Assembly (NCBI RefSeq): GCF_005047655.1
Contig: NZ_SUKF01000005.1
Coordinates: forward strand, 1 to 64,000
Reading direction: 5' to 3'
Length of the DNA: 64,000 bases
Origin: Sinimarinibacterium arenosum
Lineage (GTDB): Bacteria; Pseudomonadota; Gammaproteobacteria; Nevskiales; Nevskiaceae
In this document: one piece after another, positions 4,527-41,004 of the stretch
How the letters are laid out: every line of letters begins with the position of its first letter
How positions within the stretch are numbered: the first letter of the stretch is position 1
Translations under genes and position numbers: made by a program
Notes under the pieces: model-generated
Database searches by the model: none
Told to the model about the DNA's origin: nothing
What the model saw: the letters and a program-made list of their open reading frames with translations, nothing else

Positions 4527-6833
4527 TCAGAAGGTGATCTTCGCTTCGATCCCGTAGCTGGGGGGACGAGCTCTCGACTGCCTCTCAGGCTGATTCGCGT
4601 CGAGCGCACCCTCGTTGTCGAGAAGATTTCTACCGTACAACGCGAACTGCACGGCCTCCAGCTCGACACTCAATCTTCCGTTGAGCATGTTTACGGGGTC
4701 AGAGTAGTAGTCGTACGACCCGTCCCGCTGGTATCGGGCAACGTCAGAGTAGCTATAGTCCAGCCGGAAAGCGCCGAGGTATCCGGAAGGCCAGTTGAAA
4801 CCGATGGAAAACCCAGCAGAGCCCGTGAACGGCGATACGAAATCGACAGGATCGCCCTTTTTCTTCGAGTCGGCGTCTGTGACGAACGATGTGTCGATTA
4901 GCCCTCCCGCAAGGTACAGACTGATTCGTGGCGCTGGCTTGTAGATCAGATTCCAATCGATGCCTCTGCCCTCGACGTCCCCCTGGTTCGATATCGCAGT
5001 GAAGTTGCCCGTCCCACCCTCGGGTACAACCACTACTTGCACGTCAGTCCATTGGTTTAGGTACACGGCCATTTCAGCGACGAGTACCCCTCCCCACATC
5101 TCGAACTTTCCTCCTACCTCGAATGACTTCAGATGGTCTGGGTCGTAGGTGGGAGGAATCTCGGGGCTTGCTTGAATGTTTGCTCCTCCAGACCGGAATC
5201 CTTCTGCATAGGTTGCGTACAGCATCGCGCGATCGAGGAACTCGAAGACGTTGTCTGGTGCGCGCATCGAAAGCGCGAATCGCTTCGTCACCGCGCTGTA
5301 CGACAGAGAATCAGAGCTCGCTGCATCAAACGTAACGGCACGTCCACTACTATCAGCCTGCAGATCTTCCTTGTAGTAGCGAACGCCGGCGGCGGTGTTC
5401 AGCCAGCTCGTCCAGTCATACTCGAGCTGTCCAAATAGCGACTTCGCTGTCGACTTGCTATCTGTCGTCACATCGATCAACGGAATAGACGGCAACCCAG
5501 GGGGGCCACCGACTATTGGCAGCTGGACGTCTGCCGCCAGATTTATCTTGGCGTTGAGGTTGAGCGATTGGTCAAACCGGCGGGCGTAGGCGCCCACCGT
5601 CCAGTTCAAGGCACTCCCGCCGATCGAATTTAGTCGAAGTTCGGCAGATTCTGACTCGCTTGCAACATCGTATCCGCCAGGCGACCCACGGATTATCTCC
5701 TCTGCAAAACCCTGCAAGAGCTCATCGATGGATTCGATCGCCCCCACAATTGGGATTGCGCCGGTCGTAAGCTCTGCTGTAATCGAGTCGCGGGCATCGA
5801 AGATGACGGTGTTCTCCCGGCTAAAGCGCGACGCTGTCAACAGAACGTCCGCCCAATCTGGCGTCCAATTGATATCGACGCTTGCAATGTTTCCGTCGTC
5901 CCAGATGCCGATTTCGTTTCCGTCAAAGCGTTGGTAGTTCTCATCTGCCGCGTTGACGCTGCCTGCTTCAATCGACTGCGTCAGCCCAGTGAGGCCTATG
6001 GTCCATCGCTCTCCAGGCTCCCACTGGAAGCGAGCTCGCGCATTCTTTTTCTGCGCCTCGTTATAGTTGTCCTGGCCGAGCTCGACCTGATCAATGTACC
6101 CCCCCAGGTCTGCCACGCCGCCTACTATTCTCAATGCGGCGCTATCCCATAGGGGCACATTGACTGCCGCATTCGCCTCAAGCCCCGGATCGGCACCGTC
6201 GGTGATGAATCCATCCGACTTTGCAACAAACTCCCACTCTCCGATTCGGGGCTTCTGGGTAATCAGCTTAACGGTCCCACCCATGGACCCTTCGCCATAG
6301 AGGGTGCCCTGCGGGCCACGAAGAATTTCTACCGAAGCCAGATCAAACGTTGCAGCGTCAGGCTGGGCCAGCGAGAACGTCGATAGCGATACGTTGTCCA
6401 ACTGGTAGCCAACTGTTGCCTGACCGTGTGCCGACGAGATGCCGCGAATCTGCAGATGTTGGATGCCAGGACCTGACTCCATAACCGAGAAGGAGGGCGT
6501 TGCGGCAGCGATGTCGCGAAGGTTGTCCATGCCCATCTTTTCCAACGCATCCCCGGAAAGAGCAGTGATGGACATGGGGACGTCATAGATGTACTGCTCG
6601 CGCTTCTGGGCAGTGACGACAATCTCTTCGAGGCGCTGTGACCCAGACTCATCGAGTGTCTCGGGCTTCTCGCGCGCTTTTACGGGCTCTACTGGGATCG
6701 TTTCGTAGTCCTGTTCCTCGCTCACGTCGGATCCATCTGCTTCCTCAATCAGATCATCAATCTGAGCGTTGGCGGCATTAGCGGCAAGACACATCACGGT
6801 GGCGGCGATCACGCCGATGGATTTTGTATACAT
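4527..6833 (-). CDS. TonB-dependent outer-membrane receptor
   Basis: A 768-residue precursor with a clear signal peptide (residues 1-23, ending ANAANA before Q24). An acidic linker is followed by a TonB-box-like EEIVVTAQKRE (about 68-78), the plug domain (LRDIAAATPSFSV, LQIRGISSAHGQ) and a long beta-barrel ending in the aromatic residue of EAKITF, as outer-membrane proteins do. This CirA/FecA-like class of receptor takes up siderophores or, in catabolic clusters, oligomers. Genes for a transporter, hydrolases and an epimerase surround it, and no siderophore genes are present, so a nutrient role is more likely. It lies 16 bp downstream of the serine hydrolase gene. Confidence 0.92.
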   Translation of the reverse strand: MYTKSIGVIAATVMCLAANAANAQIDDLIEEADGSDVSEEQDYETIPVEPVKAREKPETLDESGSQRLEEIVVTAQKREQYIYDVPMSITALSGDALEKMGMDNLRDIAAATPSFSVMESGPGIQHLQIRGISSAHGQATVGYQLDNVSLSTFSLAQPDAATFDLASVEILRGPQGTLYGEGSMGGTVKLITQKPRIGEWEFVAKSDGFITDGADPGLEANAAVNVPLWDSAALRIVGGVADLGGYIDQVELGQDNYNEAQKKNARARFQWEPGERWTIGLTGLTQSIEAGSVNAADENYQRFDGNEIGIWDDGNIASVDINWTPDWADVLLTASRFSRENTVIFDARDSITAELTTGAIPIVGAIESIDELLQGFAEEIIRGSPGGYDVASESESAELRLNSIGGSALNWTVGAYARRFDQSLNLNAKINLAADVQLPIVGGPPGLPSIPLIDVTTDSKSTAKSLFGQLEYDWTSWLNTAAGVRYYKEDLQADSSGRAVTFDAASSDSLSYSAVTKRFALSMRAPDNVFEFLDRAMLYATYAEGFRSGGANIQASPEIPPTYDPDHLKSFEVGGKFEMWGGVLVAEMAVYLNQWTDVQVVVVPEGGTGNFTAISNQGDVEGRGIDWNLIYKPAPRISLYLAGGLIDTSFVTDADSKKKGDPVDFVSPFTGSAGFSIGFNWPSGYLGAFRLDYSYSDVARYQRDGSYDYYSDPVNMLNGRLSVELEAVQFALYGRNLLDNEGALDANQPERQSRARPPSYGIEAKITF

Positions 6834-36309: not shown

Positions 36310-36891
36310 TCAAGTGACCTGTAATGCACTGCCCGTCGGTGCCGGTGCAGTCCATTCGCGGCAGATGCGCACCGTCTGATCCTTTGCCAGCGGTTCTCCT
36401 GTGAGGCCACAGCGCGAGCCACGTGCTTCGGAGAGAAAGTGCGTGCACTGCCGGCAAATTCCGAAGGCTCGCTGGTTGTTCTGCCGCTGCAGCGTCGTCA
36501 GCAACTTGCACAAGGCGGCATCGAGAGCGTTCCGATCGACACTCTCGAATGACGGGAAAGCTGCCTCCAGACGCCGCGTCCAGCTATCCCTCAGGATCGC
36601 GCGTCCGGCCGCTGTCAGCCGCAAATGCACCCGCTTCCCGTGGCGTGCGTCTGGCTCCTTGATCAACAACCCGTTGCGCTCAAGCAGGGCAAGGGTCTGC
36701 GAAACCGTGCCCCGTGTGATGCCGAAGTACTCCGACACCGCGATTGGAATATCGCTGTATCGGTTCGCCTGAGACAAGTACTCCAAGACCTGGATGTGAA
36801 TGGGCAGCAGGCCGTGGCGAGCTGCGTCCTCGCGCAGGCTTTGATGAACCAGCGCGCCCAGACGCTCAAGTAGAAAGGGGGTCGAGCTCAT
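36310..36891 (-). CDS. MarR-family regulator with a C-terminal four-cysteine motif
   Basis: A 193-residue regulator. The winged-helix MarR domain covers about 1-135 (ITRGTVSQTLALLERNGLL, then a basic wing). Unusually, a tail follows with C146-x2-C149-x11-C161-x15-C177 and His151, including CGLTGEPLAK. The spacing suggests a metal or iron-sulfur site or a redox switch. The gene is divergent from a thioredoxin-like/cytochrome P460/redoxin operon, and a perfect palindrome lies at that operon's promoter. A redox-responsive repressor is the best inference; the cofactor is unknown. Confidence 0.85.
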   Translation of the reverse strand: MSSTPFLLERLGALVHQSLREDAARHGLLPIHIQVLEYLSQANRYSDIPIAVSEYFGITRGTVSQTLALLERNGLLIKEPDARHGKRVHLRLTAAGRAILRDSWTRRLEAAFPSFESVDRNALDAALCKLLTTLQRQNNQRAFGICRQCTHFLSEARGSRCGLTGEPLAKDQTVRICREWTAPAPTGSALQVT

Positions 36892-36920
36892 ATCGTCAAT
36901 GTATCGTCACGAAGCATGTC

Positions 36921-36973
36921 TTGACAACCGGCGATCCGGCCCGGATAGTGTCATTGTGTATCGAGTCGATACA
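36921..36973 (+). promoter_or_regulatory. Promoter and MarR-type operator of the redox operon
   Basis: TTGACA (36921-36926) and GATAGT (36944-36949) are 17 bases apart, giving a start near 36956. Directly after it TGTATCGA-G-TCGATACA (36957-36973) is a perfect 8-1-8 palindrome. A half site TGTATCG at 36899-36905 lies next to the start of the divergent MarR gene, suggesting autoregulation as well. Confidence 0.8.
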
Positions 36974-38506: not shown

Positions 38507-39142
38507 TCATTTCGACTTGAAGCCGAAGCGACAGACCCGCCCGCCGCGAAGCATGCACTCCCGATGTTCCACTGCCCGGCCCACCGTTGCTTCCAGGAAC
38601 GCTAGGTCGAACTGGCACACTGCTGGATATTTCGCAGCGAGTTCATGGAACACGCAGTTGCGCGCGACGATCTCTTCGCCACGCTTGTCGCTCACGCTCA
38701 AGCTGGCCTCGTAACCCAGATCCTTCATCGCGGCCGCAGTCTGGCTCACGGATGCTTTCGGGCTCCTAGCCGGCACAAGCCGCCGACCGGCTTCGGTGCC
38801 CATCCCGTGCATGACCTTGTCCAGCGCACCGTAGCCAAGGGTGCGTTCGACTGCGGCGATCAGGCTCTCGGCGATTTCGCGATAGCGCCGTGGAAAGGTT
38901 TCGCGTCCTGCCGAGGTGAGGACGAAGAGATGCTCGGGTCGTCCGCCCGTACGTTGCTGCCCCAGGCGCTTGACCGCTCCATCGCGCTGCAGGGCGATCA
39001 GGTGCGTGCGCACCGCGTTGTGGGTGATGCCGAGTTCGCGGGTCAGATGCTCGACCGATACGCCGCCCGGCGTGTGCAGCAGAACCTCCAGCAAGCGGCG
39101 CTGGGTTGGTCCGTATCGCTCCAGACGCGAGGCCTCGTACAT
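38507..39142 (-). CDS. SufR/DeoR-like regulator with an iron-sulfur cysteine set
   Basis: A 211-residue regulator with an N-terminal winged helix (about 10-65; LTRELGITHNAVRTHLIAL) and four C-terminal cysteines: C163-x12-C176-x19-C196-x7-C204, including NCVFHELAAKYPAVC. This pattern is shared with SufR-type regulators that hold an Fe-S cluster. It is the last gene of the ferritin-like/cytochrome c/FolE2 operon and starts 5 bp after folE2. It probably senses iron-sulfur state, oxygen or NO and controls this operon or others. Confidence 0.82.
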   Translation of the reverse strand: MYEASRLERYGPTQRRLLEVLLHTPGGVSVEHLTRELGITHNAVRTHLIALQRDGAVKRLGQQRTGGRPEHLFVLTSAGRETFPRRYREIAESLIAAVERTLGYGALDKVMHGMGTEAGRRLVPARSPKASVSQTAAAMKDLGYEASLSVSDKRGEEIVARNCVFHELAAKYPAVCQFDLAFLEATVGRAVEHRECMLRGGRVCRFGFKSK

Positions 39143-39147
39143 GGCAG

Positions 39148-39963
39148 CTATGTCGATCCGGTGATCAGCGCGTACGCCGCATGATTGTGGATGGATTCGT
39201 GGTTCTCTGTCTCCACGTGCAGCATCGTAGGCTGCAGTTCCCTTGAGATCGCTGCATGCAGGTCGCGCACGAGATCCTCAGCGAACTTGGGATTCTCGTA
39301 CGCAGTTTCGGTGACATACCGCTCGTCCTCCCGCTTGAGCACCGCATAGACCGGGCACGACGCCGCACGCTCCGCCAGCGCGACCAATTCGTTGATGCCG
39401 ATCGGGCGACGGCTCCGGAGCATGACCGAGACCGTCGATCGCTGATTGTGTGCGCCGTATCGCGAGATGGCCTTGGAGCACGGGCACAGTGTCGTGACCG
39501 GGATCCGCACGGACATCTGCCGCGACGGCCGGCGCTCCCACGGTTCGAGTTGGATGTCGTACGAAACCTCGAGATCGAGCAGCGAGCCGTAGCCGGAGAC
39601 GGGCGCCTTCTTCTCGACGAACCACGGAAAGCGAAGGGCGAGCGTTCCGCCGCGCGCATCCAGGCGCTTGAGGATCGCCTTGAGGCTGGATTCCAGATCG
39701 GCCGTGCGAATCCGCGGCGCCAGTTCGTGCGCGCACTGCACGAGTCGCGACATATGCGTGCCGCGCTGCGAAGCCACCACGCGCACGCCCAGATCGAAGG
39801 TACAGACGCTGTCATGGCTGGATTCATCGACGTCCGTGATTGTGCATGGCAGCCGCAGGCCGCGGATGCCGGCGCGGGTAACCGCTAGGCCACGCCGATC
39901 GCGGGCGGATTGCGTGTCCGGGAGTGCGGGCTCGATCGCGTGCGCCCGTTCCATTATGTCCAT
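39148..39963 (-). CDS. folE2: GTP cyclohydrolase FolE2 (type IB)
   Basis: A 271-residue GTP cyclohydrolase of the FolE2 family, which makes dihydroneopterin triphosphate for folate and does not depend strictly on zinc. The catalytic cysteine region TLCPCSKAIS (C160) and the family blocks KAPVSGYGSLLD and TETAYENPKFAEDLVRDL are present. ATG 39963 is chosen, with ATG 39954 as an alternative; the long open frame upstream overlaps the cytochrome c gene. A Zur box was not seen. Its operon partners are redox proteins, an odd setting. Confidence 0.92.
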   Translation of the reverse strand: MDIMERAHAIEPALPDTQSARDRRGLAVTRAGIRGLRLPCTITDVDESSHDSVCTFDLGVRVVASQRGTHMSRLVQCAHELAPRIRTADLESSLKAILKRLDARGGTLALRFPWFVEKKAPVSGYGSLLDLEVSYDIQLEPWERRPSRQMSVRIPVTTLCPCSKAISRYGAHNQRSTVSVMLRSRRPIGINELVALAERAASCPVYAVLKREDERYVTETAYENPKFAEDLVRDLHAAISRELQPTMLHVETENHESIHNHAAYALITGST

Positions 39964-39989
39964 ATCTTTGATGTCCTCTTCGATTCTAC

Positions 39990-40391
39990 CTACGGCGTCG
40001 GCGCATTGGATCGCCGGCAAGTGCGCGGTCCCTGCGCCGCCGTTCTCAGGAAGGCGATCAGATCGACGCGTTCCGTCGCGAGCGGCGCCAACTGGACGAC
40101 CATCGCATTTCCGGGAACCAGCGCGTTGGGGTCGGCCAGCCAGCGGTCGAGCATCGCGTCGTTCCAGACAATCCCGGAAACCCTCAGTGCCTCGGAGTAG
40201 GCGTATCCCGGTTGCGTTCCGGCCCGGCATCCGAAGAGCCCCTGATGACGAGGGCCAGGCCCGTTCTCGGCGATGGTGTGGCAGCCCCCGCAGCGCGCGT
40301 CGTACAGCGCTTTGCCGCGCGCGGGATCTGCGCCGGGGGCCGCCGTGACGCACGCAAGAGCGATCACGGCGGCCAGCAACGACAACCGCAT
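39990..40391 (-). CDS. Class I c-type cytochrome
   Basis: A 133-residue precursor with a signal peptide (about 1-20, ending APG or GAD). The haem motif is C34-G-G-C37-H38 and a distal Met lies in VPGNAMVVQ (about 94-96). It resembles cytochrome c2/c552 electron carriers (GPRHQGLFG). It is the second gene of the leftward operon, 4 bp after the ferritin-like gene and 26 bp before folE2. Confidence 0.88.
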   Translation of the reverse strand: MRLSLLAAVIALACVTAAPGADPARGKALYDARCGGCHTIAENGPGPRHQGLFGCRAGTQPGYAYSEALRVSGIVWNDAMLDRWLADPNALVPGNAMVVQLAPLATERVDLIAFLRTAAQGPRTCRRSNAPTP

Positions 40392-40395
40392 GGGC

Positions 40396-41004
40396 TCAGG
40401 CTCCGAAGCTCAGCGTGTTCTGCGGCAGTGGTTGCCCGAGCGACTGCGACAGCACCGTGTAGTGCAGCGTCTCGTCGGCGATCAGGCGACCCGCCACCTT
40501 GGATAGCGAGCGATCGGCGAAGCTCGGCATCACGCCCAGGTAGGCATTGATGGCGCCGAGCTCCAGTCGCTGTGCGAGCCGCAGGATATCCTCGGCGGTG
40601 GCGATGGATCCGATGTCCAGCTTCGAGCTGGCCTTGTACTCGGCGAGGCTCCGGGGCTGGACCGGCGTGCCACCCAGCTTTTCGATTGCGCCGGCGAGTA
40701 CCTCGCGGTGGCCCTCGTGATGGCCCTTGAACAGCACCGCCACCGAGAGCAGTGGCTTGCTCAGCAGACCGGTTCCGGCGCCGATCTCGTACGCAGCGAT
40801 GCCCTCGTGCTCGAGGCCGAGCGCAACGTTGAGGATGGCGACATCGCTGCCGGTCTGCTCGTCGCGCGGCGTCGCCGCAAGGCTGCGCAGCGAGACGCCA
40901 CTCAGTAGCGCCATTGCCGTCGTGGACAGCATCGCCGTGCGCGCGAGCAGCGCGCGCCGCTGAGGGCTCGCAATCAGCGCGTGATCAGTGTTTGCTTCTG
41001 TCAT
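40396..41004 (-). CDS. Exported ferritin-like domain protein
   Basis: A 202-residue protein of the ferritin-like (PF13668-type) family. The N-terminus has SPQRRALLARTAMLSTTAMALLSG, which looks like a Tat-type signal, so export in folded form is likely. The mature part is a four-helix bundle with Glu and His residues (GLEHEGIAAYE, FKGHHEGHREVL, LELGAINAYL, ADETLHYTVL) suited to a di-iron site. It is the first gene of the operon with cytochrome c, folE2 and the SufR-like regulator. Confidence 0.82.
   Translation of the reverse strand: MTEANTDHALIASPQRRALLARTAMLSTTAMALLSGVSLRSLAATPRDEQTGSDVAILNVALGLEHEGIAAYEIGAGTGLLSKPLLSVAVLFKGHHEGHREVLAGAIEKLGGTPVQPRSLAEYKASSKLDIGSIATAEDILRLAQRLELGAINAYLGVMPSFADRSLSKVAGRLIADETLHYTVLSQSLGQPLPQNTLSFGA

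Follow-up and report, generated by a model that had tools for sequence, protein, structure and literature searches.

What does a MarR-type regulator with a four-cysteine tail control, and what would the tail allow it to sense? The question is raised by a gene in the 64,000-nt stretch of Sinimarinibacterium arenosum DNA analysed here (the window), which an earlier note had described as encoding an ordinary MarR domain followed by C146-x2-C149-x11-C161-x15-C177. The only cysteines of the product are at positions 128, 146, 149, 161 and 177, and the spacing is therefore exact. The domain before the tail is also as described: the Pfam MarR_2 score (42 bits, cut-off 27) places the protein by sequence among the MarR winged-helix proteins, and the predicted model matched solved MarR structures over approximately residues 1-141, with the tail outside the matches (best MarR-fold Z = 13.6, over residues 1-135). 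The model (57 aligned rows) had a mean pLDDT of 94.3, with values of 95-97 for the blocks spanning residues 141-180. The protein shares with the MarR family (MarR_2; SlyA, MepR, OhrR and others) the winged-helix domain, which is the fold of residues 1-141, as well as a divergent target and a palindromic candidate operator; unlike the family at large, it carries the extra Cys4 tail. Thiol-switch MarR proteins of the OhrR/MgrA type have their reactive cysteine in the N-terminal part. Such a residue is absent here, since no cysteine precedes residue 128. No NCBIfam equivalog cut-off was reached, and at an E-value of 0.1 there was no match to the SufR model (TIGR02702) or to the Pfam Rrf2 domain of NsrR and IscR. 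We favour, with moderate confidence, a reading in which the protein acts as a local autorepressor and detects nitrosative or thiol stress through a metal (Fe-S or Zn) bound by its Cys4 tail. The features concerned are collected in Table 1.

Table 1. Features of the regulator gene, the divergent redox operon and the region between them, in window positions.
Feature	Position	Strand	Basis or remark
MarR-family regulator with Cys4 tail, 193 aa	36310..36891	-	ORF, Pfam, predicted model
C-terminal four-cysteine module, residues 143-181	36349..36465	-	homologue rows and alignment
marR promoter-like site TTGTCA, 18, TACATT	36898..36927	-	-35 overlaps divergent -35
Proximal operator (putative), imperfect	36900..36916	.	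overlaps predicted marR -10; centre 57 bp from that of the distal operator
Redox-operon promoter-like site TTGACA, 17, GATAGT	36921..36949	+	
Distal operator (putative), perfect palindrome	36957..36973	.	starts 8 nt past predicted target -10
Thioredoxin/glutaredoxin-like protein, CPVC, 77 aa	36994..37227	+	Pfam, PDB match 2k8s
Cytochrome c'-beta, exported, CxxCH and Phe cap, 157 aa	37298..37771	+	Pfam, PDB, alignment
Redoxin, CPGC, 191 aa	37778..38353	+	Pfam; closest solved relative 3eyt, named SPOA0173

Relatives of the regulator were taken from plasmid records, from related genomes and from a scan of genome contigs with peptide patterns of the MarR HTH region (best 80 of 577 relatives). The four tail cysteines were kept in all 95 homologue rows inspected, a set that is biased to tail carriers because the rows were picked by whole-protein similarity, and that includes the window gene itself in three rows. 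The last gap was 15 residues in 95/95 rows, and the middle gap was 11 in 76 and 12 in 14. In the 57 aligned rows, F143, C146, C149, C161, T164, L168 and C177 were invariant and Cys128 was not conserved, which bears out the view of the tail as a conserved, dedicated module. Going by record titles, tail-bearing MarR proteins, many of them from metagenome-assembled genomes, occurred in Pseudomonadota, Nitrospirota, Nitrospinota, Planctomycetota, Myxococcota, Acidobacteriota, Deinococcota and Bacteroidota. Their distribution is sporadic: 4 of 61 close genomes (own included) carry one, as does a single one of 10 further representatives of the genus, and a search for the tail in 398 Pseudomonadota genomes gave 18 matches in 16 genomes. 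Among the 17 tail loci besides the window, 14 were MarR frames with the full motif; one further MarR frame (L121) has three tail cysteines, lacks the fourth and has an altered end, which counts against the favoured reading. Occurrence of the tail outside MarR proteins could be rejected for the 15 non-window loci inspected, all of which were MarR frames (the 14 with the full motif and L121). Judged from these sequences, the tail is the mark of a broad MarR subfamily, and we found no curated family for it.

The intergenic region contains a perfect palindrome, TGTATCGA-G-TCGATACA, at the divergent promoter, as had been claimed. No other exact match to GYATCGANTCGATRC occurs in the 4.54-Mb host genome; 12 more sites have one mismatch, versus 2 for a reversed control pattern. 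When the best match was determined in 78 non-redundant upstream regions (from 85 before the redundancy filter), it had 0, 1 and 2 mismatches in 29, 19 and 9 regions, respectively. This amounts to 57 of 78 regions with at most 2 mismatches versus 0.2 in shuffles, and points to a conserved operator-like site. Its centre lies 55-94 nt before the marR start in 53 of the 57 regions and 18-24 nt before it in 4. The palindrome was absent from 21/78 regions, an observation that counts against the favoured reading. The proximal site was found with at most 2 mismatches in 50 of the 78 regions (shuffles, about 1.0), at one identical distance in 32, and both sites were present in 42. The window contains an outward promoter-like pair with overlapping -35 boxes (0.3 expected). 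A match to the target promoter pattern is present in 42 of 86 regions, and in 25 of the 28 regions that also have the strict palindrome, the latter starts 6-8 nt past the target -10 (raw counts). The two sites thus look like a putative operator pair, one at the expected target start and one over the marR -10, both of them conserved. Dimers bound at these two positions would bring about repression of the operon together with autorepression. A wider regulon in the host was considered and set aside: besides the single exact operator, three of the 12 one-mismatch sites were inspected, and two of them are located within long frames. The third (L125, 954-968) sits where one frame ends, 55 nt before the next start, and may from its position be a further target.

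The gene was also correctly described as divergent from a redox operon, whose products are a thioredoxin-like protein with CPVC, a cytochrome c'-beta and a redoxin with CPGC. The first of these scored 23.4 bits with Thioredoxin_3, just below the cut-off of 24.8, and its closest solved relative is 2k8s (E 2.6e-34). The heme protein belongs to Pfam Cytochrome_P460; its best PDB match was 6hih (E 8e-55), the best P460 entry reaching E 3e-11. In the portion of the structural paper available to us, 6HIH is the M. capsulatus cytochrome c'-beta, which has no lysine-heme bond and is capped by Phe32 and Phe61, the latter in place of the cross-link residue (PMC6427953). Among 27 aligned neighbour cytochromes (window included), 26 have Phe32, and all 27 have Phe61, CxxCH and the seven further residues listed as fully conserved. 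A canonical cytochrome P460, with its heme-lysine cross-link, was ruled out because the cross-link position is Phe in 27/27. The combination of P460 fold, CxxCH and Phe instead of the cross-link lysine identifies the operon protein, at the level of its sequence, as cytochrome c'-beta, an NO-binding, Phe-capped relative of P460. The consulted part of a recent review states that the physiological roles of cytochromes c' are yet to be determined, and that NO-related roles have been proposed, none of them settled (PMC11928373).

Other genes of the neighbourhood deserve mention. Beside the redox island, on the minus strand, are a gene for a SufR-like regulator (38507-39142; TIGR02702 65.5 bits, cut-off 178.8) and genes for a FolE2-type GTP cyclohydrolase, a cytochrome c and a ferritin-like protein (39148-41004). 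The host has a second cytochrome c'-beta (L122 4833-5318, with 5424-5771), which is 62% identical to the first, overlaps a redoxin frame and is divergent from an HxlR-family regulator: a like operon with a different regulator. About 1.4 kb from this second operon lies a relative of the SufR-like gene (L122 2756-3397; 41% identical), and both c'-beta loci of the host therefore have a SufR-like regulator nearby.

The linkage between regulator and cytochrome was assessed from both sides. Starting from the cytochrome, 274 Gammaproteobacteria genomes contained 18 c'-beta copies (in 17 genomes), whose flanks were examined to about 1.5 kb on either side, contig ends permitting. A MarR of the window family was present within about 1.5 kb of 12 of the 18 copies (11 of 17 without the window copy). 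The Cys4 tail was found on all 12 linked regulators, those of L157 and L158 being distant members, and 9 of the 12 stretches had the operator with at most 2 mismatches. One cut-off stretch (L160) had the operator, again with at most 2 mismatches, as well as the thioredoxin-like and DUF2024 genes and no MarR. Five of the 18 copies had neither MarR nor operator, which counts against the favoured reading; among them is the second copy of the host, with its redoxin and HxlR-regulator neighbours. No operator with fewer than 3 mismatches was found in 3.4 kb around the Methylococcus c'-beta gene, though that genome has the regulator, and no MarR is annotated within 3 kb of the c'-beta gene of a Pseudomonas plasmid. 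Side-by-side MarR and cytochrome c'-beta genes were seen in Thermus thermophilus HB27, and in the two Thermus plasmids inspected the cytochrome gene directly precedes that of MarR. Our searches of the open-access literature did not yield a paper that connects MarR with P460 or c'-beta; the single paper with both P460 and MarR treats them apart in the text accessible to us.

Starting from the regulator, we surveyed 76 loci, leaving out four of the 80 for want of a start anchor; 71 of the 76 had at least 1.5 kb of upstream DNA. Neighbour families were obtained for 95 of 141 upstream frames and none of 100 downstream frames, and 25 of the 59 families were listed. Redox marker genes were present in 47 of the 71 loci: cytochrome c'-beta in 22, the thioredoxin-like protein in 19, DUF2024 in 10, redoxin in 8, a 250-aa protein without Pfam match in 3 and MOSC in 2. 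The other 24 loci had no marker gene, and this counts against the favoured reading; 18 of them are labelled in their records as Methylococcales, where the regulator may serve other genes. In L046 the cytochrome is on the opposite side of MarR, in a Corallococcus locus (L092) MarR faces a CMD-family protein, and the Ruegeria locus has the heme protein HTHP in addition. Plasmids of Pseudomonas, Enterobacter and Citrobacter have the thioredoxin-like gene as the divergent gene and no annotated cytochrome in the stretch. We also observed that in Pseudomonas (L006 3027-3858) and Enterobacter (L009 2945-3864) this gene is followed by genes for DUF2024 and a ROF-type Rho-binding antiterminator, and that in Ruegeria and Vibrio (L007 3126-3887, L008 3131-3883) a 250-253-aa protein without Pfam match replaces the cytochrome; relatives of the genes for this protein recur in other loci. 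We take the L006 protein to be PA0942. In what could be consulted of the sources, PA0942 appears in two Pseudomonas expression lists on topics other than NO, one of which counts it with the 'oxidative response genes' whose expression fell.

In the 398 Pseudomonadota genomes the thioredoxin-like gene occurred in 12 and the tail in 16, with both in 9 (P 4e-12, or 7e-11 when the own genome is left out), and in 9/9 of the shared genomes the two were at most 0.9 kb apart. Cytochrome c'-beta was found in 3 of the 398 genomes, 2 of which carry the tail. Only 2 of the 16 tail-bearing genomes thus had c'-beta at E 1e-15, a count that goes against the favoured reading and that leaves most tail carriers of this sample without the cytochrome. 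The spread of the regulator is broader than that of cytochrome c'-beta. On a tree of 85 rows the c'-beta label needs 9 changes, at least 6 of them forced by well-supported branches, and is nevertheless clustered (0 of 500 shuffles equally low). The window MarR probably controls the adjacent redox genes, cytochrome c'-beta included.

The nature of the tail was approached by comparison with known families. A profile of 40 tails gave no sequence match in the PDB better than E 0.8, and none of the 40 matched a Pfam family at cut-off wherever a cut-off is given. As neither a curated family (above its cut-off) nor a solved structure was matched, the tail appears from these searches to be undescribed. 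Modelled alone, it gave a poor model (pLDDT 67), and fold searches had no usable match, which does not amount to evidence of a new fold. We infer that it is a metal site and rate Fe-S marginally above Zn.

A narrower form of the favoured reading, possible though on balance doubtful, is that the four cysteines hold a [4Fe-4S] cubane that is nitrosylated by NO, releasing the repressor. The linked cytochrome belongs to a class that binds NO, and the tail resembles HiPIP segments in having a CxxC followed by two single cysteines at similar spacing (C-x2-C-x11 to 14-C-x13-C in nine segments, versus x15 before the last cysteine in the window). Yet the profile match is not significant: hhalign gave a probability of 13% over 22 columns with the nine segments and 4 of 150 column-shuffled decoys did equally well, so that a HiPIP-like cluster is a lead and not a finding. 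Pfam HIPIP (PF01355) was absent from the 21 families listed for the 40 tails at E 10, a listing from which the HMMER filters remove most matches above E 0.1. The existence of tail-bearing members without c'-beta also speaks against an NO-sensing cluster. SufR, NsrR and other Fe-S regulators, which belong to domain families other than MarR, sense through a cysteine-bound cluster, and the window protein would be like them only if its tail holds one. A closer precedent, in the part of the paper that we could consult, is ArnR of corynebacteria, which combines a winged helix reminiscent of MarR/ArsR with C-terminal cysteines and an NO-sensitive [4Fe-4S] cluster, loses DNA binding with NO and targets nar and hmp (PMC12343034). 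The likeness is one of description, as the same text gives ArnR three conserved cysteines (179, 193 and 223) versus four in the window protein. From what was available of another report, CioR of Chromobacterium violaceum is a MarR-type repressor of an operon protecting against NO and other stresses, and is released from DNA by Zn and Fe; it differs from the window protein in being of the GbsR type, with one cysteine named (C52), and in its link to cytochrome bd instead of c'-beta (PMC11837568).

We regard as somewhat unlikely a Zn(Cys)4 redox switch, in which oxidants or electrophiles would free zinc from the four thiolates and unfold the tail. The linked genes do encode thiol-disulfide proteins, and the weak Pfam matches of the 40 tails were mostly to zinc domains (DZR_2 in 10 of them; 19.8 bits for the window tail, cut-off 27). 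In zinc ribbons, however, the second ligand pair is a CxxC knuckle, whereas in the tail it is 15 residues apart, and the absence of any match at cut-off weighs in the same direction. A purely structural zinc is unlikely. The tail would then only stabilise the dimer, and the ordinary MarR pocket would receive the signal in the form of a small molecule; according to the accessible part of a survey (PMC12506092), small ligands are common among MarR proteins, and the tail is predicted with confidence to pack as a unit. The genes linked in 47/71 loci, however, have redox and not catabolic or efflux functions. A metal-free switch, in which disulfides between tail cysteines alter DNA binding and CxxC partner proteins could reset them, is very improbable, as four cysteines invariant in 57/57 rows are more than a two-cysteine switch requires.

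In the reading that we favour, with a Cys4 metal centre of either kind, the window MarR would be a local repressor and the added C-terminal module its sensor. The expected transcription start of the trx - cytochrome c'-beta - redoxin operon would be occupied by one dimer, bound at the distal palindrome, and the marR -10 by another, bound at the proximal site, which would make marR self-repressing. Nitrosative or thiol-oxidising stress would damage or modify the Cys4 centre, through the action of NO or related species on an Fe-S cluster or of oxidants on a Zn-thiolate. The altered centre would cause the dimer to leave the DNA and both promoters to open. Cytochrome c'-beta would then bind NO outside the cytoplasm, while the two CxxC proteins would repair thiols.

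A tentative proposal, which we consider rather doubtful in its full form, is that a [4Fe-4S] cluster in the Cys4 tail serves a widespread MarR subfamily as NO sensor and that, in Gammaproteobacteria, this subfamily provides the main local control of c'-beta. If true, cytochrome c'-beta and the two CxxC proteins would constitute a response to NO and thiol stress. A c'-beta-linked regulator with a defined operator and its own sensor module would provide a handle on when and why cells make this cytochrome, and the Cys4 tail would be a new sensor module for the MarR family.
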